Source of the DNA: a virus
Reading direction: 5' to 3' (one strand)
DNA length: 34,488 bases
Virus record (IMG/VR): IMGVR_UViG_3300028883_000096
Location: 1-34,488 of that record
In this document: positions 4,675 to 34,399 of the stretch, one piece after another
How the letters are laid out: every line of letters starts with the position of its first letter
How positions within the stretch are numbered: the first letter of the stretch is position 1
The notes under the pieces: model-generated
The model's input: only the letters and a program-made list of their open reading frames with translations
Database searches by the model: none
What the model was told of the DNA's origin: nothing
Program-made: the position numbers and the translations under genes

Positions 4675-4931
4675 TAACCCAGCACCTTATAAGTGTTCGT
4701 GTTCATCCCTTTGTCGAACTCAGCAGCAGCCGTCAAAAGGTTTGCACCCAACGTTTTAAGGTCCGCTCCGCTCACTCCGTCGCCCAGATCGGCATCGTTG
4801 GCAATCAGCGAAGAGCCATCCACAGCGTCCCATTTCGCTTTCAGGAGCTTGATCTTATTGATAACACTCAAATACTCAAGGGCTGTGGTCTTCACAGTCG
4901 CAATCAAATTATCTTTCGTGTTCGTATTCAT
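4674..4931 (-). CDS. Small virion or chaperone protein upstream of fibre
   Basis: An 85-residue, mostly helical protein, repeating MNTNT at both its N- and C-termini. An AAAGGAAG Shine-Dalgarno element precedes the ATG at 4931. It is coupled by a TAATG overlap to the YadA-like fibre gene, so it could be a fibre assembly partner or a linker. I do not recognise a family. Confidence 0.5.
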   Translation of the reverse strand: MNTNTKDNLIATVKTTALEYLSVINKIKLLKAKWDAVDGSSLIANDADLGDGVSGADLKTLGANLLTAAAEFDKGMNTNTYKVLG

Positions 4932-4949
4932 ATTTCTTCCTTTCTTCTT

Positions 4950-4985
4950 CCCCCTCTTTTAAGAGGGGGTTAGGGGGTGTTGTCT
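4950..4985 (+). repeat. Dispersed G-rich palindromic repeat, copy 2
   Basis: CCCCCTCTTTTAAGAGGGGG is followed by TTAGGGGGTGTTGTCT. It lies in the gap between the tape measure and the small 85-residue gene; the mRNA of that operon would carry it as a hairpin. Confidence 0.95.
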
Positions 4986-5023
4986 TATTAAATCCCACCT
5001 CTACCTCTTGTCATGTGGGTGTT

Positions 5024-8000
5024 TTACATTGATTTCAATTCTTTCCTCTTCCACGCATCAATCTGACCACGCAAGGAATCGCCATCGGCTTTCATTTCGC
5101 CGTCAAATTCGATGTTCAGATTAGTATTTATTTTTGTCTGCAAAGCCCTGATCTCTTTGCGAGTCGCAGCAAGCTCGCTTCGTAAGTTCTGATTGTCCGC
5201 TCTTAGCTCTGCGGTCTGCCTGTTTATCGCCTGTGCGGTATTTTGTTCGGACATTCCACGCACCAGCACCGGGACGATTTCACTTTGCGGTTTGAGCTTA
5301 TTCTGCAATTTCTTTTGCAAATTTATGTCCTGCTGGAACTTATCAACGAAATACTCTGAGAGCGGTCTTTTGTGTTTATTGACCCATTCAAACGCCTCTT
5401 TGTTGCCTGTGGCAAGCGTCGCTTCGGCATTCATAACTGACTCGTGAATACTTAAGCGGCTTAAATTCGAATCGCTTTTCGTCGTTCCTTTACCTTTTAA
5501 ATCAACCGTTCCTTCGGCAAAAGCACCCATTACAGCAGATTCAACACCTGCAAGAGCGGCATACATCAAACCGGCTGCGATACCTCCCACGATTGCACCA
5601 GTTATCGGATTTAAGGCAAGGGCTTTGGCAAGTGCCTCGGCGGCATAGATCGGGATTTCTGCTTTCAAAGCGGAGAATGCTGTTTTAACAAATGCTTTAC
5701 TCCAGTTCTGCTGTTCCATGCCGATCTGTGAGAACATCGTTGCGTAACCGGTTACTTTTGCCTGAAGCATTGCACTTTCGGTTTCGGCAATCTGTTCTTC
5801 GACAGCCATCTGACCTTCCTGCAATTCGGCAAGCTGTTCATAATATCGTTCTGCCTCGGCAAGTTTCCCGTCGTTTATCGCTTTTGCCATGTTCAATTGC
5901 GTCTCGGCGATCTTTTCGGCATTGTCTTCCTGCTGTTCGGCAAGTGCGTCGAGGTCATTCTGGTAGCTTGCTGAAAGTTCCAGTTGCTGTTGGCTGATCT
6001 TCTTAAATGCCTCGCCGGCTGCTTTCGACATAACGGCAAACACATCCACCTGAGCGGCTTTGCGTGCCTCTGCCTGTTGCTTTTCGAGTTCGAGCTGTTC
6101 TTCAGCAAGACCATTGACTTTTTCGTAATATTCTTCAATCGATATTTCACGGTTGCGGAGCTGCTCTTCCAAATCAAGCGATGCCGTTTTATTTGTTTCA
6201 AGCTGTTTATTAAGATCATCAAGCAAACCCTGATCTTTGTTGCCGGAATAATCGGCATTGAATAAAGCATCACGGAATGCAGAAGAAATCGAATAAAGTA
6301 CGTTCGTATCATTCAAATACTTTTCTTCTGCGGCTTTCTTTTCGGCAAGGAAGCCCTTTAATGCCTGAAGTTCCTGCTGCTGATTGCCCTTGGCTTTTGC
6401 GAGCTGCTCCTGATATAGCTTTTCGGCTTCAAATATTCTGATTTCTCGCTCTCTGACCGCAAGATTCCTGATCTGATTTATTCGCTCCTCTTTGATCTTT
6501 AAGTCAACGTCAGCCGTTACTTCGTTTATTTTTTGATCAAGTTCGGCAAATAAATTGGCAATCTCAGGTGTCTCAGAAATAATTTTTTCTTTTATTTCGG
6601 AAAGCTGATCCTGCATTATCTTAACGATCAGCGAGTCGTCGCCGAAAGTCTGCGTAGCTGCGTTCAAAGCGTCCTGTGCTTCGAGGTATGCCTGATTACG
6701 TTCCAGTATTGCACTGACTTCGGCATCGGTCTGCCTTTCTATCAATTGGATACGTAGCTGTCCCTGCTCTTGCAAATTGGCAACAGAATCGTCGCCAGTG
6801 AGCTGAGGTGCCTGCGTTTCAGCGATTGCCAAACGCTGTTCGAGTGCCTTCGTTTCGGCATCATAAATTTCCTGATTGCGGCTTCGTATTGTTTCAAGTT
6901 GCTTATCCCAATAAGATTCTTTGATCTTGTTTATTTCGGCTTCTCCCTGCTCGGTTAGAAGACCGATCTTTGTATTCAAATTTTTAATTAACTCTTCTCG
7001 TTCGGAGTTCCTGACGTTGTCAAGTTCTTTGGTCCTTTGGATTTCATCCTGAACACCTTCCACGGCAATGCGTATCTTTTCCTGCTGCATGGCAATTTGC
7101 CTGTCCAGTTCATCTTTTATCTGATTATTAGACAGATCATTCTGGAGCTGTGCTATTTCCTGCAAGCTCTTTTTAATCGCTTCTTTTAGCGAGTCATATT
7201 CTTTCGGATCGCCAACTGGCGGCGGTTTCGGTGTGTTCTGCTCCACGTCGGTCTTTATCTCTTCATTGATCTCACCGGTCTTTGCCTGATAAAATCTTTG
7301 CTTATCAAGTAAAGCATCATAAAACTCATTGATAGCTTTGCGAGTGTTCAGCAAGCCGGCTTTGTCGTAGCCCTTTTCATCTGCTCTTACGTCTAATGCC
7401 TGTAAAAGCTGGTCCCTTGCGTCCTGCAATTCACCGCTGGAGGTTGCCCGGTACATTTCTTTTACGTAAGGATCAAGGAAGTTCTCTGACCATGCACGTA
7501 CATTCGAGCCGCCAAGTATCGCTTCGTCAAAACTATTCGATAGATCGCTAAATAAACCGTTTGCCTCTGATTGCACTTCGGTTAAAGCATCTTCGATGTC
7601 CCCTTTTGCTTTATCGGCTTTTACGGAGACTTCCAGCTCAAGTGTTCTTTGTTCCTGTTTGTTCAGCTCTTTCATATTAGCGATAAGCCCGGCAAGCTCT
7701 GACTTCGAGTCGGCAACACGTTCCGAAAGCCGTTTCATGTTCGTCGCCCAATCGTCTGTGCTTTTGATAGCTCCCGGAAATTCATTGCGAAGTTCCTGCG
7801 TTACAAGTTTCAATCTTTCCTGCTCTTCACGGCTTAACTTCTGCTTTTTCGATAGCTTTTCGTATTCTTCCACGAGAGCGACATTGGCTTTGATCTGTGC
7901 CTGTTTCGCTTCGTTCATCTGCTTGTCCTGCTGAATGATCTCTTTCTGTGCCTGTATTTCGTCGAGCCGTTCTTCGGCTGTTTCGTGGAAAGCACCGGCA

Positions 8001-22577: not shown

Positions 22578-23170
22578 TATAAGCTCCTTGGGATTGATGA
22601 ATATTCTTTCCATGCGTTACGGCGTAAGTTATCGAGAAAAAATAATTTTTCGATATGCTTTTCCTTCACTCCGAAAGCCATGGATAGGGAAGCGGGAGTG
22701 AGCTTGCCCTGTAAATTAAGAATGAATTGAGAGCGACGGACACCTATCCCCGAAGTTCTGACGAAGAGATCAACGGCACGGCGACGAAGGAAGGCTTCCT
22801 GCATGGCATTTACCTGAGTAAGCTCAAGATTTTTCTTTCGTATCTCGATTTCTCCCACTCGTATCTTTTGCAGGAACTCTGCCAAAGCCCGGCGAAACTT
22901 TCGGGCTTTCTCCGTTTTGGCAAGCATGGCGATAATATAACAGCCAATCTCGTTAAACGCAAGATGTTCCTGCTTTCCACCAAGGGGTGTCCCAATTTGG
23001 GACACCCCTTTAAAAGGTTCAAGCTCTGCCTGATTTCTGTAATAAATCTTTTTTACACCACGGAATGGATTTGTAAAACCTAAATGTCTGCCCAATTCAT
23101 GAGCCGTCATCCATAGCTGACCTTCTTTTTCAAGAAAATCATCTCTTCGTAAAATGATTGAGTTATTCAT
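22577..23170 (-). CDS. BRO-N domain antirepressor-like protein
   Basis: A 197-residue protein. Residues about 1-115 are a BRO-N domain: 'MTAHELGRHLGFTNPFRGVKKIYYRN' and 'LAFNEIGCYIIAMLAKTEKARKFRRALAEFLQ'. The remainder is a variable C-terminal part with a possible HTH. BRO-N proteins bind DNA and act as phage antirepressors or regulators. The gene has a good AGGAGG Shine-Dalgarno sequence (seven bases before the ATG), and its leader holds two RNA-structure candidates (23198-23341). It is far from the repressor gene, unlike classical ant genes. Confidence 0.8.
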   Translation of the reverse strand: MNNSIILRRDDFLEKEGQLWMTAHELGRHLGFTNPFRGVKKIYYRNQAELEPFKGVSQIGTPLGGKQEHLAFNEIGCYIIAMLAKTEKARKFRRALAEFLQKIRVGEIEIRKKNLELTQVNAMQEAFLRRRAVDLFVRTSGIGVRRSQFILNLQGKLTPASLSMAFGVKEKHIEKLFFLDNLRRNAWKEYSSIPRSL

Positions 23171-25895: not shown

Positions 25896-26160
25896 TTTCT
25901 TCAAAATTAAGTGATTGCTGAGCCGTGGGATGTTTGCCACGGTGCAGCTTAAAATCGAGATATTTGTCGTCGAATTTTTCGATTGGGATACGTTCTTCTT
26001 TTAGCTTGTCCGGGTTGAATACATAGACATCGAAAATAACTGCCCGGGAGCGAAAGCGGCAGCCGCAGTCCACGCAAAGGTGGGTGCGAATATCCGCGTC
26101 ATGGCGTTTGTCGCTCCACGGGATTTTAACGTTGTCAGAACCGCAGACAGGACATGTCAT
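25777..26160 (-). CDS. Zinc-ribbon regulator, Ogr/Delta-like (candidate late activator)
   Basis: A 127-residue protein. Residues 1-50 carry two CxxC knuckles, CPVC (3-6) and CVDC (29-32), separated by a basic segment with 'SDKRHDADIRTH' and followed by FRSRAVIFDVYVFNPD. This ordering (CPxC, R-rich segment, CxxCxxxF and a hydrophobic strand) is like Ogr/Delta zinc-finger activators of phage late genes. Residues 55-127 are unrelated and low in complexity (many Asn, Ser, Gly). It starts at an ATGA overlap with the DnaA-like gene. A role in switching on the late genes is inferred. Confidence 0.55.
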   Translation of the reverse strand: MTCPVCGSDNVKIPWSDKRHDADIRTHLCVDCGCRFRSRAVIFDVYVFNPDKLKEERIPIEKFDDKYLDFKLHRGKHPTAQQSLNFEENGTSTNSDQRNDPANGKSGSDSGANKRRSPADIVREQYS

Positions 26161-26615
26161 ATCAACCCCAGTCTTAGTTTACATTCATTTACGATCTTGC
26201 GTGCTGAGTAGCCGTAAGCGTCCTGAACGGAGGCGACCACGACGTCGTCGATATTATTTGCACCATGCAGGACCGTCGAATGATCGAAGCCGCTGAAACG
26301 CCCTATTTCCATTAGGGAATAATTGAGCTTGCGGCTTAAGTAAAAGAAGATATGACGGGCTTGCGTGAGCCGTGCCTTGCGGTTTTGCGACGTGATGTCA
26401 TCGGCTGCAAAGCCAGAGACTTCGGCGACGGTTGCAAGGATTTGATCAAGTGTATGGTAACCCTTTTCACGCATAACGGAGACAGCGTCTTCGATATACT
26501 GATTTAAGCGAACCGCAAGAGATTCGAAACTCTCGCGGTACTTATCATAAAGGACATTCGGAGCAAGCGGCACGAAGTCGGCTGCGTGGTTTGCTATGTC
26601 TTTAGCTGTTAGCAT
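26157..26615 (-). CDS. Free-standing DnaA domain IV protein
   Basis: A 152-residue protein. The C-terminal about 95 residues match the DNA-binding domain IV of DnaA: 'TVAEVSGFAADDITSQNRKARLTQARHIFFYLSRKLN' then 'SLMEIGRFSGFDHSTVLHGANNI'. This includes the DHSTV signature that reads the DnaA box. The AAA+ and domain I parts are absent. It could bind DnaA boxes to divert host initiation or to regulate phage promoters. ATG at 26615 has GGAAGTG upstream. It overlaps the ParB-like gene by 14 bases. Confidence 0.85.
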   Translation of the reverse strand: MLTAKDIANHAADFVPLAPNVLYDKYRESFESLAVRLNQYIEDAVSVMREKGYHTLDQILATVAEVSGFAADDITSQNRKARLTQARHIFFYLSRKLNYSLMEIGRFSGFDHSTVLHGANNIDDVVVASVQDAYGYSARKIVNECKLRLGLI

Positions 26616-27657
26616 AATGCACTTCCGATATTTGTTCAAGAATTACAGAGAGATCTTCGAGTGGGAAGAGGAAAGCAAGTTCTTTATCAATAAATATATT
26701 CCAATAGATAAGCCGGTTGCCATCCTGAATAACACCTTCGCTATTTGGGTATATCACTGATTGCTGATCGTTGTTTAGAGCAGAGATCGGCATAGTATAG
26801 CATGCGAAGTCGTCGGGTTCGAAGACAAAAGCGGGCTGTGGCTTTTGTGGCTCTGGCTTTGGTTTCGGCTCTGGCTTTGGTTTTGGTTCGGGTTTTGGCT
26901 CTGGTTTCGGCTCAAGCTGTTGCTTAAGGTGCTTTTTATATTCGATAATGGTTTGATATGCTTTATTGAGCGAAATATCGCCGGCAAAGAAAGCGTCACG
27001 GACTTTATCCCATTTATCAGAAATTTCGTTGGTTTTGTTGTGATTAACACCCTTATTGCCGATCTCATTTAAAAACTTCTCCCGATAATCGGCATTGCAG
27101 ACGGCAATGTATTGCGAGACCTCTTTTGGTTTAATACCGATTTTTTCAGCAATGAATTTTACGGAGTCGAGAGGAGCAAGAATAAGCTCTTCACGGCTTT
27201 TTTCATTCTGAAAGAGGGGGTGGTTTATGACTTCACTATCTTCTGTAAGTTTGTGCTCTTGCTTTAACTTACCGATTTGGTACAAAATTTGCTTGTACTG
27301 GTCAATTTCGAGTGAAATAATTTGCGGCGATTTGTCTCTTTGTTTGTTTGCCACGAGCAAATCGAGCTTAGTCAAAAGCGGATCATCATACTCTTTGATG
27401 ATGCAGGGGACGAACTCAAGACCAGCCATTTCTGCGGCTCTTACTCTGCGGTGTCCGCTAATGATAGTAAAACCCTCATAATCGTTTTCGTCGAATAGTT
27501 CGGTATGCGTAACGATGACAGGGTGCAGGATGCCACGCTCTTTGATAGACCCCAGAAAGTCGTCGTCAATGTGCATATCGCCATAGATCAGTTCCTGATC
27601 TGGGTGTGCAGTGAGTAAATTAGTTGAAATCTGTTGAATTTGTGTTTCGGTGTTCAT
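26602..27657 (-). CDS. ParB/Spo0J-like protein with Pro-Lys-rich linker
   Basis: A 351-residue protein. Residues 15-100 form the ParB N-terminal (CTPase-type) domain with the 'ISGHRRVRAAE' box (66-76). Residues about 160-240 form a helix-turn-helix region ('VKFIAEKIGIKPKEVSQYI'). Residues 249-276 are a strict Pro-Glu/Pro-Lys linker, 'EPKPEPKPEPKPKPEPKPK', followed by a novel C-terminal domain (280-351). No ParA is present in the window. It probably binds a parS-like site in phage DNA. A good AAGAGGAAG lies before the ATG. Confidence 0.8.
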   Translation of the reverse strand: MNTETQIQQISTNLLTAHPDQELIYGDMHIDDDFLGSIKERGILHPVIVTHTELFDENDYEGFTIISGHRRVRAAEMAGLEFVPCIIKEYDDPLLTKLDLLVANKQRDKSPQIISLEIDQYKQILYQIGKLKQEHKLTEDSEVINHPLFQNEKSREELILAPLDSVKFIAEKIGIKPKEVSQYIAVCNADYREKFLNEIGNKGVNHNKTNEISDKWDKVRDAFFAGDISLNKAYQTIIEYKKHLKQQLEPKPEPKPEPKPKPEPKPKPEPQKPQPAFVFEPDDFACYTMPISALNNDQQSVIYPNSEGVIQDGNRLIYWNIFIDKELAFLFPLEDLSVILEQISEVHYANS

Positions 27658-28312: not shown

Positions 28313-28942
28313 TTATGCCTCCACGCTTGAAAAGTTAAGATTAATAGTTTTGAATTCGCCGTCGCCGTTCTTTTCGTAGAATCTAACGTAACGCTTGGAA
28401 TCGGCTGCCTTGGATGCGTCGTCAATCAAGGAAAGGGCTTCCTGAAAGAGTTTGTCCTTGATCTCGGAACGGTATTTGTTCAAAGCAAGGATACGTTTCG
28501 GATCGAGCTTGCCTCCTTTTTTCTCGAATGCCGAGAGCAGGATTTTGCCGATGTGGTGCTGTTTGTCGGTAAGTGAGTTCTGGACGAACTCGGTAAGTTT
28601 GTTCTTTGCCTCAAGGATCAGCGTTTCGTCGAATACGATGCCTTCCTGCTTTTGCAGTTCGATCTTGAGTGAGTTATCGAAAGCGGTCAAGTTATATCCA
28701 CCGGTAAGTTTTTCGGGCTTCAAATTGTGTTCCTTCCGTTTGGTATCGTGTGAATCCTGGCAGAGCTTTATGGCATCTGCTTTGAGTTTAGCGAGGTCTT
28801 TGCTGAGCTTGTAAGCTCTTTTGATTATCGGATGAATCTTGCGTTCATCGAAGATCACTGACTTATTGATGTAATTGAAAGGGACTTTTTGTCCTTTTTC
28901 ATCAATCCAGTGATCCGTCGGCTTGCTGCCTGTCTGTTTCAT
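28313..28942 (-). CDS. DUF3164 family Mu-like phage protein
   Basis: A 209-residue protein. The N-terminal 'TDHWIDEKGQKVPFNYINK', the central 'ALNKYRSEIKDKLFQEAL' and the C-terminal 'AADSKRYVRFYEKNG' match DUF3164 proteins, present in most Mu-like phages in the early/middle block. Their function is not known; a role in replication or host takeover is proposed. AAGGA lies upstream of the ATG, which overlaps the end of the 121-residue gene. Confidence 0.85.
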   Translation of the reverse strand: MKQTGSKPTDHWIDEKGQKVPFNYINKSVIFDERKIHPIIKRAYKLSKDLAKLKADAIKLCQDSHDTKRKEHNLKPEKLTGGYNLTAFDNSLKIELQKQEGIVFDETLILEAKNKLTEFVQNSLTDKQHHIGKILLSAFEKKGGKLDPKRILALNKYRSEIKDKLFQEALSLIDDASKAADSKRYVRFYEKNGDGEFKTINLNFSSVEA

Positions 28943-29267
28943 TTTCGAGTTCCTTTTTAAGTATTGGAAAAAAGCTGATTAATATTATTAATTGTTTGTT
29001 AAAGTCTTTTAGTTTCTGGTTGTCTTTGAATAACTGTATAGCGTATTTTGATGGAACGATTGGCTCCCCTTCCGAATTCTTCCACTGATAGAATTCTTCC
29101 AACGTCCCCTTCTCCAGCAATGATTCTAATGTCTTCCTGATCTGCTGCATGCCTTGCCAGAGTTTTCTGAGAGCCAAACGTTTCGATTCCGTCTTTGCGG
29201 TCTTTCCAGTCCATTCGATTTTCTTTAAATAAGTGTCTAAAAATTCAATTTGTTTTTCGAGTTCCAT
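28902..29267 (-). CDS. Small protein of unknown function, early block
   Basis: A 121-residue basic helical protein that starts MELEKQIEFLDTYLKKIEW. The ATG at 29267 is chosen; a longer frame would run into the dispersed repeat at 29272-29303. It overlaps the DUF3164 gene by 41 bases. No family recognised. Confidence 0.55.
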   Translation of the reverse strand: MELEKQIEFLDTYLKKIEWTGKTAKTESKRLALRKLWQGMQQIRKTLESLLEKGTLEEFYQWKNSEGEPIVPSKYAIQLFKDNQKLKDFNKQLIILISFFPILKKELENETDRQQADGSLD

Positions 29268-29271
29268 ATCA

Positions 29272-29303
29272 AACACCCCCCTGCCCCCTCTTAAAAGAGG
29301 GGG
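29272..29303 (-). repeat. Dispersed G-rich palindromic repeat, copy 8
   Basis: AACACCCCCCTG is followed by CCCCCTCTTAAAAGAGGGGG. It lies between the gp16-like gene and the 121-residue gene, just upstream of the latter's start. Confidence 0.9.
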
Positions 29304-29310
29304 AGGTTAA

Positions 29311-29949
29311 TTAGTTCATTTCTGAGATCATTCGTTCTTCGTAAGGTCCGAAAGCCGTCGAAAGTACTGAATAGATCTGTTTGTAGCGTTGTATTAGGTA
29401 CGACATTTCCTGTGGCGATAGGTATTCGTAGTTCATCCGGTGCTGGTTTTTCGTAAATTTCTTGAATCCGCCTTCGATAAGGAATCGGTGCGATTTCGGG
29501 TTGATCGTATCTTTATATATATTATAGAAGACAGTGCGAGGGATCAACTTGTGTTCCTGCCAGCGTTTGATCAGATAAAGCCGCAGTTCGCTTCCGGTGT
29601 AATTCGTACCGGTTTCGTCATCCTGAAAGATGTAATCGCCGAAGTCGTGATAATGGAAGCCATAAGACATCATGTAAAAGCGTAACATATTGAGCTGGTT
29701 TTTCGTACCGGTTGTTTTGTGCTTTTCGGGCTTTTCGATACCTCCCAGAACGCGGAGGCGGTGGATCGCCTCCGTTAGTTCTGAGTTGGTAAGGTCTTTG
29801 TAAATCTTGCCGAACATGATATTACAGGTTTCGTCCCGGAGGGCTTTTACTGCGTCGGAATCGTGCCGGAAGTTCTCATTAATATTTGCCATGGCAGCAT
29901 TGTATAATGATCTATACAGTTTGCTTCTGGGTGAAGGTTGCTCAGTCAT
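29311..29949 (-). CDS. Mu gp16-like (GemA-type) regulatory protein
   Basis: A 212-residue protein. The central part, with 'FGKIYKDLTNSELTEAIHRLRVLGG' and then 'TKNQLNMLRFYM', is similar in order and spacing to gp16/GemA proteins of Mu-like phages, which affect host gyrase or gene expression. The C-terminal 100 residues are basic and aromatic-rich, unlike short gp16 proteins. The ATG at 29949 has GGAGG upstream and overlaps the preceding gene by 8 bases. The similarity is partial. Confidence 0.55.
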   Translation of the reverse strand: MTEQPSPRSKLYRSLYNAAMANINENFRHDSDAVKALRDETCNIMFGKIYKDLTNSELTEAIHRLRVLGGIEKPEKHKTTGTKNQLNMLRFYMMSYGFHYHDFGDYIFQDDETGTNYTGSELRLYLIKRWQEHKLIPRTVFYNIYKDTINPKSHRFLIEGGFKKFTKNQHRMNYEYLSPQEMSYLIQRYKQIYSVLSTAFGPYEERMISEMN

Positions 29950-30265
29950 AACTGCCTCCGTACATGAATTCGCTTGCGAACATTTCACGAAAGAACTCCG
30001 TTTCAACACCCATTTCGTCGAGTGTGTTAAGGATCAGGTTGTATGCTTTGTCGAATCCGACGGCACGCTCACCGGCTTTATATTTGGCATGGTATTCTTC
30101 GAGCAGTTCGTTGATGCGTTCCACAATGTCTTTAAGCTGCCATGCAGTAAATGTCGGGATAAAAGGTTTCCAGTCGCCGGCTTCATCTTCGAAGATGTCG
30201 AAGAAGTCATCTTGAGAGCCGTCATTATAGACAGCCGAGCCGAGATATTGAGCTTTCTTTTCCAT
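29942..30265 (-). CDS. Acidic protein of unknown function, early block
   Basis: A 107-residue, strongly acidic protein (DGSQDDFFDIFEDEAGDW near the start) with a helical C-terminal half. AGAGGAG precedes the ATG at 30265. Very acidic small early proteins sometimes mimic DNA or bind DNA-binding host factors; here there is no motif to show it. Confidence 0.55.
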   Translation of the reverse strand: MEKKAQYLGSAVYNDGSQDDFFDIFEDEAGDWKPFIPTFTAWQLKDIVERINELLEEYHAKYKAGERAVGFDKAYNLILNTLDEMGVETEFFREMFASEFMYGGSYD

Positions 30266-30288
30266 TATTTTGTCTCCTCTTTAATAAG

Positions 30289-30564
30289 TTAGGAATATTC
30301 ATTTTGCAGTTCTTCTGCTTCAATTCGGAGAGCATTCTCAGTATCTGAGAGCTCCTGAATGCGTTGTTTAATGAATGATTTGCGTTTTTCACGCATAAAT
30401 GGTGCGGCGTGCAGACCTCCGTCGGCGAGTAAGTTGAAAAAATCGGAGTGCGACATTTCAAGTCCTTTGATAAACTTAACGAGTTTGTCTTTTTTTGCAC
30501 GATCAATATTGACATTGAAAGAGATCGGGTCTTTCATCGGGATTTCATTGCGATAGTAACTCAT
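30289..30564 (-). CDS. Possible ribbon-helix-helix DNA-binding protein
   Basis: A 91-residue protein. Residues 11-45 ('KDPISFNVNIDRAKKDKLVKFIKGLEMSHSDFFNLLA') have a beta strand followed by two helices, the arrangement of ribbon-helix-helix regulators, followed by a charged helical tail. Its start overlaps the upstream stop (TAATG), so it is likely co-translated with the 125-residue gene. A regulatory role is likely but not shown. Confidence 0.5.
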   Translation of the reverse strand: MSYYRNEIPMKDPISFNVNIDRAKKDKLVKFIKGLEMSHSDFFNLLADGGLHAAPFMREKRKSFIKQRIQELSDTENALRIEAEELQNEYS

Positions 30565-30941
30565 TATTGACCTGCCTTTCCATTAAGTAGTGGAGTGCTT
30601 CCGTTTGGAGCAAGCACGTTAATTTTTTCGGCGAGGGATTGACCTGGTAAGAAGTCAATCAACTCCTGATTCAAGGCACCATTGAAAGCGTTGGAAACGT
30701 CGTGAAGCTGCTGTTCGAGCTGTCTTTTTTCCTTGCGTACTTGTTTGAGTTTGCGGACATTTGGATCGTTATTTACTTTGTTTTGCAAACGTTTTACTTC
30801 CTGTGCTTTTGCAGATAGCTTAGATGCGAAGGCGTTGCCCATGCGACCAAGTTTCACTAAGTTTTGCAGTTTGTTTTCGGTTATCTCGACACCGGAGGGC
30901 TTGTCTGATCCGAAAAGTTCGATTGCTACGTCGTTGCTCAT
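30564..30941 (-). CDS. Coiled-coil early protein of unknown function
   Basis: A 125-residue basic protein with a coiled coil (about residues 33-85, with many Lys/Arg/Gln/Leu) between more polar ends. AAGGAGC precedes the ATG at 30941. It occupies the position of MuB but is far too short and has no Walker motif, so it is not that ATPase. It might be a transposase partner. Confidence 0.5.
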   Translation of the reverse strand: MSNDVAIELFGSDKPSGVEITENKLQNLVKLGRMGNAFASKLSAKAQEVKRLQNKVNNDPNVRKLKQVRKEKRQLEQQLHDVSNAFNGALNQELIDFLPGQSLAEKINVLAPNGSTPLLNGKAGQ

Positions 30942-30960
30942 AATTGCTCCTTAATTTGTT

Positions 30961-32957: not shown

Positions 32958-32977
32958 GCATATTAATTTGGGAATCC
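32958..32977. promoter_or_regulatory. Internal ATTAATTTGGGAATC operator-like site
   Basis: ATTAATTTGGGAATC (32962-32976) is identical to part of the left-end site at 84-98. It lies between the Ner-like gene and the transposase start. In Mu, a similar internal site serves as both repressor operator and transpositional enhancer; the same double role is proposed here. Confidence 0.6.
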
Positions 32978-33331: not shown

Positions 33332-34147
33332 ATGACACCGGGAGAGCGTTTAAAATTATTTGTCAATCTTGTATATAACGGCAATATCAGTGCATGTGCG
33401 GCAGATATGGGTGTTCATCAATCGCATTTATCTGTCTATGTCAATGCGAAGCGAAACATTGGCAATAAGATGATGCAATACTTTGAAATGGTTGGAGGCA
33501 ATGATCTGTGGCTTATGAAGGGTGTTGGCAGCATGTTCAGCAATAATGAAAAGGGCAGGGCTCTGGAGCGGAAGTTTGGTAGCGTGGCAGAGACGATAAA
33601 ATCGGGTGGGGACGTTGAGCCAGTAGCAAGCGTCAGGATTACTGAGCAAGGCAATAACATAAAAGAGGTCGAGCCGGTATATACGATAAAGGGAAGCAAC
33701 GAAGCGAAGGCGTTCCGGGTGCAGCCGATAGGAACGAGCCAGATACTGCTTACATTCTTTCAAGAGCCGGCTGGGGCAGCAGTAAGCAAACCGGTACTGG
33801 ACGGAGGTGAGTCGGAAGTTAATCTTGCGGAGGTGCTGAAATTGGATCAGGAAGTGTTTGTTGTTGAGGTGGTTGGTGATTCGATGACCGAAGCGGGTAT
33901 ATATCCGGGAGATTTGCTGTTTGTGCGGAGGAACCAGGAAGCAAAGGATCGGGACATTGTTCTTGTATATATAGAAGGCGAGCTGATCGTTAAGCGTCTA
34001 AGGACACAGAACGGCAAAAAATGGCTTGTTTCGGACAATACGGAGTACCTTCCTATTGAGATCAATGGAGGAGAAGAGATCATTATCTTTGGGATCGTCG
34101 AAAATAGCATACGGAGGCACAAAAAGCCGAATGGCAATGGTGGGTAG
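33332..34147 (+). CDS. Phage repressor, HTH plus S24 (LexA/UmuD-like) peptidase
   Basis: A 271-residue protein. Residues about 5-40 form an HTH ('ACAADMGVHQSHLSVYVNAKRN'-type). Residues about 145-260 are a peptidase S24 domain with Ser184 in VVGDSMTEAGI and Lys221 in IVKRL, the catalytic pair of LexA and UmuD. A likely self-cleavage region is around 'EPAGAAVSKP' (145-154). DNA damage should therefore inactivate it via RecA, so the prophage is probably SOS-inducible, unlike Mu c. The gene faces away from the early operon. AAGGTG lies before the ATG. Confidence 0.88.
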   Translation: MTPGERLKLFVNLVYNGNISACAADMGVHQSHLSVYVNAKRNIGNKMMQYFEMVGGNDLWLMKGVGSMFSNNEKGRALERKFGSVAETIKSGGDVEPVASVRITEQGNNIKEVEPVYTIKGSNEAKAFRVQPIGTSQILLTFFQEPAGAAVSKPVLDGGESEVNLAEVLKLDQEVFVVEVVGDSMTEAGIYPGDLLFVRRNQEAKDRDIVLVYIEGELIVKRLRTQNGKKWLVSDNTEYLPIEINGGEEIIIFGIVENSIRRHKKPNGNGG

Positions 34148-34399
34148 ATTCCCAAATTAAAATACATCTAATGCAATAATAGAATAGGGAGCATAAAAAG
34201 TCAGATTCCCAAAATAAAGTGCAATTAAATGCAATTATATATGCTTTTATATGCAATTCAGTTGCACTAAACAACATTACCAAATTAAAGTGCAATAATA
34301 GAAAGAGTACTATATAAGCGAGATATAAAAGAAATAAGTGTAATACAAAAATAAGCGGCGACGCCAAAAAAATATGACCACGAACAATAATTTGGGAAT
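34146..34399. promoter_or_regulatory. Right-end repeat sites (putative transposase binding sites)
   Basis: Copies of the end motif lie at 34146-34167 (AGATTCCCAAATTAAAATACAT), 34203-34220 (AGATTCCCAAAATAAAGTG), 34277-34297 (TTACCAAATTAAAGTGCAAT) and, inverted, 34386-34399 (AATAATTTGGGAAT). TGCAATAATAGAA is also present twice (34172-34184 and 34291-34303). The last copy is the exact inverse of the left-end site at 26-39. The remaining 90 bases could be either phage end or host flank; no coding potential is seen there. Confidence 0.6.

Follow-up and report, generated by a model that had tools for sequence, protein, structure and literature searches.

Relatives of DnaA domain IV, the DNA-binding domain of the bacterial replication initiator, have been studied experimentally in phage-like elements that make gene transfer agents. 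In Caulobacter crescentus, the promoter-binding protein GafY (CCNA_01111), a homologue of DnaA domain IV, activates the gene transfer agent genes (PMC9632790, PMC11150451). It was first named HdaB and its overexpression affected replication, but the authors argue that it does not regulate oriC (PMC9632790, PMC11150451). In Rhodobacter capsulatus, GafA has a DnaA-like N-terminal domain that is needed for activation (PMC9638019, PMC6363796). As for ParB, its presence in Roseobacter Mu-like phages was noted earlier (PMC5488378). Here we analyzed a Mu-like phage in which a gene for a ParB-family protein overlaps a gene for a free-standing DnaA domain IV (DnaA-IV). The two genes look like neighbouring early regulators, each of which recurs in Mu-like phages though not as a pair, rather than like a new two-part machine.

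The window, i.e., the whole stretch of DNA analyzed, is the complete IMG/VR virus record IMGVR_UViG_3300028883_000096 (34488 bp). Its Mu-like features are a MuA-type transposase, a DUF3164 protein, Portal_Mu, a Mu-type protease, a terminase and transposase-end-like repeats (Table 1). The GemA label of one early gene is tentative, because its product has no Pfam GemA match. Copies of the repeat TAATTTGGGAAT cluster at both window ends and directly before the transposase gene, on its upstream side, and its core TTTGGGAAT occurs 7 times against 0.63 expected, a number reached in none of 100 shuffles. This suggests that the repeats are candidate transposase end sites and that the genome is nearly complete. 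As the record is a whole virus with such repeats at both ends, genes absent from it are not obviously lost through truncation. Near the right end, short repeated TGCAATTAAATGCAATT/TGCTTTTATATGCAATT motifs at 34218-34260 are possibly host-factor or transposase accessory sites.

Table 1. Features of the window, with positions, strand and the basis of each assignment
Feature	Position	Strand	Basis or remark
Candidate transposase end-binding sites, repeat TAATTTGGGAAT	26-37, 86-97, 32964-32975, 34148-34159, 34205-34216, 34276-34287, 34388-34399		
Head-morphogenesis-type protein, 219 aa	25281..25940	-	36% identity to 12015-13349 of L088; also in L008 and L009
Zn-ribbon-like protein, 127 aa	25777..26160	-	Directly downstream of dnaA-IV, 4-base overlap
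Free-standing DnaA domain IV protein, 152 aa	26157..26615	-	ATG 26615; alternative TTG 26639 gives 160 aa
ParB-family protein, 351 aa	26602..27657	-	ATG; Pfam ParB_N (PF02195), about 50-52.7 bits vs cut-off 26.3
DUF3164 protein	28313..28942	-	PF11363, 110 bits; typical of Mu-like early regions
Putative early gene in GemA position	29311..30009	-	Weak similarity to same-position L088 gene
MuA-type transposase, 656 aa	30961..32931	-	PHROG 310 transposase, E 3.8e-9
LexA/UmuD-type repressor	33332..34147	+	NCBIfam LexA/UmuD models; divergent from early operon

The initial annotation had reported no ParA, replication protein or MuB, and our protein scans agree with it. The window proteins scanned included no ParA, replication protein or initiator ATPase, and a MuB-type HMM gave no match in the window, where the only AAA_22 match is the terminase. 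A profile built from other Mu-like phages detected no Mor-type activator in the window or in two of its relatives, L088 and L009. Our HMMs for Mor, MuA, MuB, GemA and Gam were built in-house on small sequence sets; that for Gam included a mis-framed member and was not relied on.

Both genes of interest are present on the minus strand, as first annotated. The DnaA-IV product matches Bac_DnaA_C (Pfam PF08299) with 67.8 bits against a cut-off of 31.5, and phmmer relates it to the structures 1J1V (DnaA domain IV, 5e-7), 1L8Q and 3PVP. Its AlphaFold model (pLDDT 89.7) is overlaid by Foldseek on the DnaA-DBD/DNA-box complexes 3PVP (TMt 0.89, rmsd 1.5) and 1J1V. The DnaA box-binding fold occupies residues 57-122, preceded by an extra helical N-terminal part (residues 1-50) without family match. 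The domain IV fold and the base-reading residues are thus common to this protein and to the bacterial initiator, whereas domains I-III and the AAA+ ATPase belong to DnaA alone: AAA+ domain III and the helicase-interacting domain I are absent from the 152-160 aa product, in which the C-terminal profile alone matches. The description of the gene as encoding only the DNA-binding domain of DnaA therefore stands. Its start overlaps the 3' end of parB by exactly 14 bases (26602..26615, minus strand), the figure given initially. No Shine-Dalgarno-like motif precedes either possible dnaA-IV start, ATG or TTG, while 32 of the 43 window starts examined have one, so that translation of dnaA-IV is probably coupled to that of parB.

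The window ParB is built like the ParB of ParABS and Spo0J-Noc systems, with a ParB_N domain (residues 6-100), a helix-turn-helix-like region (by eye, ~168-190) and a C-terminal domain of ~80 residues, and phmmer finds matches to Spo0J/ParB/Noc structures. The Pro-Lys linker mentioned in the initial annotation was found as well (KPEPKPEPK, about residues 250-272). The AlphaFold model of this ParB, built on two sequences, is of too low a quality to be used (pLDDT 53). Unlike the known systems, the CTPase motif GERR reads GHRR and ENxQR reads ANKQR, with the Glu replaced; the ParB of L088 has GHRR and SNQTR at these positions. With ANKQR in place of ENxQR, and with neither a ParA nor a parS-like site found in the window, spreading by this ParB is uncertain and clamp-type spreading cannot be claimed.

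A terminase scan retrieved L009 and L008 among viral contigs and, in a metagenome bin, L088 and L089. Our sample of the window's clade consists of these four relatives; the early region lies outside the sequences of L008 and L089. In L088, a ParB gene (28% identity over the alignment) is followed by a Cys-rich, by eye Zn-ribbon-like gene and by a head-morphogenesis gene (36% identity), which is the order of the window. Relative to L088, dnaA-IV is an extra gene between ParB and Zn-ribbon genes, in a syntenic block ParB-[DnaA-IV]-Zn ribbon-head protein that ends with the head protein. Apart from the full-length dnaA of the host, no DnaA-IV was found anywhere in the bin of L088, and among the matches listed for 148 genomes of the phylum of this host there was only full-length DnaA. 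A 191-aa HTH gene of L088 was tested as a diverged DnaA-IV and rejected. Judging from the two genomes, ParB is probably the older resident of the locus. Neither DnaA-IV nor ParB_N nor an AAA_22/MuB-type protein is encoded in the whole 30.6-kb record of L009, and the window's group (window 28900-30960, L009 and L088) appears to be without a MuB gene altogether. Since L009 lacks ParB, DnaA-IV and MuB together, ParB plus DnaA-IV is not a general stand-in for MuB. No relatives emerged from single-sequence viral scans with DnaA-IV, ParB or the transposase, nor from a scan with a ParB alignment.

Both families were also found in another Mu-like clade. Three of 80 DnaA-IV loci (L150, L158 and L179) are Mu-like, with the gene order ParB, MuA, MuB, DnaA-IV, DUF3164 or Gam, and GemA. 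A MuA scan gave 71 loci, and HMM searches found a free-standing DnaA-IV in about 20 of them; these counts come from home-made HMMs, and Pfam, applied to DnaA-IV and ParB only, confirmed 22/22 DnaA-IV proteins tested (including that of the window) and 13/13 ParB proteins. Some of the high-GC ORFs listed by the HMM searches are real genes with an extended frame, such as L158 5416-6600, where the real gene starts near 6079. L179 / L223 has two tandem free-standing DnaA-IV genes between MuB and Gam (4898-5197 and 5415-5789), the first being more diverged. Among the 48 loci with enough flanking sequence (L184-L246 set), which include close relatives such as L226-L228, a ParB_N gene lies just upstream (5' side) of MuA in 47. 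DnaA-IV is found in 15 of the 48, each time with ParB (15/15, Fisher p = 1), in the early operon and almost always kilobases away from ParB. ParB_N is a near-universal early gene of that clade and DnaA-IV an optional one. Because ParB is almost universal there, its co-occurrence with DnaA-IV is uninformative.

The initial annotation had treated ParB and DnaA-IV as one system. Such a functional unit, in which a site marked by DnaA-IV would load or anchor a ParB that spreads or bridges DNA, could account for the adjacency, the 14-base overlap and the probable translational coupling, and the two genes do co-occur in many Mu-like phages. Nevertheless, we regard it as highly improbable: L088 keeps ParB in the same synteny without DnaA-IV, L009 has neither gene, the association in the other clade has a Fisher p of 1 with the genes almost always far apart, and the E-N-x-Q-R motif of the window ParB reads A-N-K-Q-R. 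The adjacent arrangement is therefore not conserved in the transposable phages searched, an outcome that the initial annotation had named as refuting its proposal. In the literature searched we found no description of a ParB and DnaA-IV pair, in line with the initial annotation.

ParB genes are also present in cultured Mu-like phages, namely Rhodovulum vB_RhkS_P1, Pelagibaca vB_PeaS-P1, Ochrobactrum POA1180, Sinorhizobium Aussie and Microcystis Mwe-Yong1. As in the window, these are ParB_N proteins of the early region of a transposable phage, with no ParA annotated beside them. They flank MuA on its 5' side or lie close to that position, and they keep ENLxR, whereas the window ParB follows DUF3164, carries ANKQR as well as a Pro-Lys linker, and belongs to a phage in which MuB is missing. 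DnaA-IV gave no match in the stretches read of Rhodovulum P1, POA1180, Aussie, Mwe-Yong1 and PeaS-P1.

Free-standing DnaA-IV proteins are common in phages, being found in hundreds of viral contigs and several cultured phages. A scan with a four-member DnaA-IV alignment matched at least 327 viral contigs, and in ~65 of the 80 fetched the ORF is shorter than 300 aa. All 41 examples aligned, that of the window included, match Bac_DnaA_C. Cultured carriers are Cellulophaga phi19:3 (gp013), Tenacibaculum Gundel_1, Leeuwenhoekiella Arctus_1, EBPR podovirus 2 (gp7), Microcystis Mae-JY35 and Bradyrhizobium ppBeUSDA76-2. Their proteins have the same domain as that of the window, a similar size (~100-170 aa) and an early or replication-side location, but these phages are not known as Mu-like and no ParB neighbour was noted in them. 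Five 'Bacteriophage sp.' records (MT837747, MT837279, MT835476, MT835859 and MT835965) were discarded as bacterial contigs with full-length dnaA or parB; in one of them dnaA lies near parB, as at a normal chromosome origin. In a 73-member tree, the window copy groups with the Bacteroidota-phage copies of Cellulophaga, Tenacibaculum and Leeuwenhoekiella (support 0.83) and apart from those of the other Mu-like clade, within the limited resolution of so short a domain. This grouping suggests that the window phage acquired its DnaA-IV separately.

The genes around DnaA-IV in other phages bear on a role in replication or targeting, in which domain IV would mark a phage or host site and recruit replication proteins or transposition, serving as the DNA-binding part of an initiator split in two. 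In Arctus_1, Gundel_1 and phi19:3, DnaA-IV has genes with the annotation DNA replication protein beside it or close by, and it follows MuB, an AAA+ ATPase, in several Mu-like loci. The window itself has no helicase loader and no MuB, and its phage DNA has no DnaA-box cluster; moreover, with MuB, ParB and DnaA-IV all absent from L009, the pair is not required as a replacement. We consider this role improbable.

Our preferred reading, to which we give a probability of about 0.45, is that ParB and DnaA-IV are two separate neighbouring early regulatory genes of one operon, and that DnaA-IV is a site-specific DNA-binding transcription regulator whose translation is coupled to parB. The ParB-family protein would be this lineage's version of an early gene that is present in the majority of Mu-like phages in one or more other clades. 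DnaA-IV would be a recurrent phage protein that has kept the DnaA fold and the base-reading helix and lost the initiator ATPase. Most likely it would regulate transcription in the early or middle phase of lytic growth, a part played by GafY and the GafA N-terminal domain in gene transfer agents. We infer this role, and the binding sites that go with it, from relatives: DnaA-IV is most likely an early regulator that binds DNA, because the sole experimentally studied relatives in phage-like elements, GafY and GafA, activate transcription. Like them, the window protein has a DnaA-IV-like DNA-binding domain in a phage-like element. The likeness has its limits. GafY acts with GafZ, whereas the neighbours here are ParB and the Zn-ribbon-like protein; no GafZ-type partner, sigma-like or with a DUF6456 match, was obtained among the scanned neighbours of DnaA-IV. 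GafA has lost the R399 contact (E8; PMC9638019), which the window protein keeps, and the element types differ.

Two further results count against a regulator: no operator was identified, and the DnaA-IV of the other Mu-like clade does not simply fill in for an absent late activator. A Mor-type activator is present in every one of the 18 DnaA-IV-bearing Mu-like loci that extend far enough downstream, so that the idea of DnaA-IV as a replacement for a missing Mor is not supported in that clade.

The DNA-contacting residues bear on both the regulator and a second explanation. In the alignment with E. coli DnaA, the window protein has the same residue at R399, R407, D433, H434, T436 and H439, and Ser at T435; its base-contact equivalents are R79, D111, H112, S113 (a conservative change) and H117. 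The backbone contacts R442 and K443 are Asn/Asn. With its DnaA-box-reading residues kept, the protein would fit a host DnaA-box target equally well. A free domain IV could thus occupy the DnaA boxes of the host oriC early after induction, bar the assembly of DnaA-ATP and free the replication machinery. The identity of the R399, D433, H434, T436 and H439 equivalents speaks for such a block, as do the position of the gene in the early operon and the lack of an ATPase domain. DnaA boxes, whose search had been proposed initially, are neither enriched nor clustered in the phage (2 boxes against 3.5 expected) or in the DnaA-IV-bearing Mu-like loci (2 against 3.2), so that the dense targets of a true DnaA-box binder would be on the host. 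Mu-type replicative transposition is independent of DnaA, as established for Mu, and the phage would be spared for this reason.

On the other side, the two Asn replace backbone contacts, and the recognition helix has diverged in some of the Mu-like copies: H434 is kept in 16/22 and H439 in 12/22, and the copies that lack them, about a quarter and about half, probably no longer read DnaA boxes. This divergence points to phage-specific sites rather than host DnaA boxes. In addition, the best-studied free-standing relative, GafY/HdaB, for which a replication role was first proposed, has been re-explained as a transcription activator (PMC9632790). Because of these experiments on free-standing relatives and of the diverged helices, we rank the regulator first and the block of host initiation close behind it, as possible but less than likely. 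A broader version, which we find rather unlikely, would have Mu-like phages repeatedly gain a free-standing DnaA-IV that, early on, blocks the DnaA boxes of the host and shuts down initiation on the chromosome during DnaA-independent transposition; the copies with diverged helices would then be former blockers recruited to phage promoters.

A block of host initiation would give a transposing phage a simple dominant-negative route to stop host replication. A GafY-like regulator would mean that phages have reused the DnaA DNA-binding fold many times in regulation, Mu-like early operons included; we found no earlier description of this fold in such operons in the literature searched. Either reading would correct the annotation 'replication initiator DnaA' on phage genes of this kind.

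Finally, the window contains a sole long perfect palindrome of 29 bp, AAGGGGTGTCCCAATTTGGGACACCCCTT, at 22982-23010. It is present in a single copy inside a Bro-N antirepressor-like ORF and is a possible operator or parS-like site.
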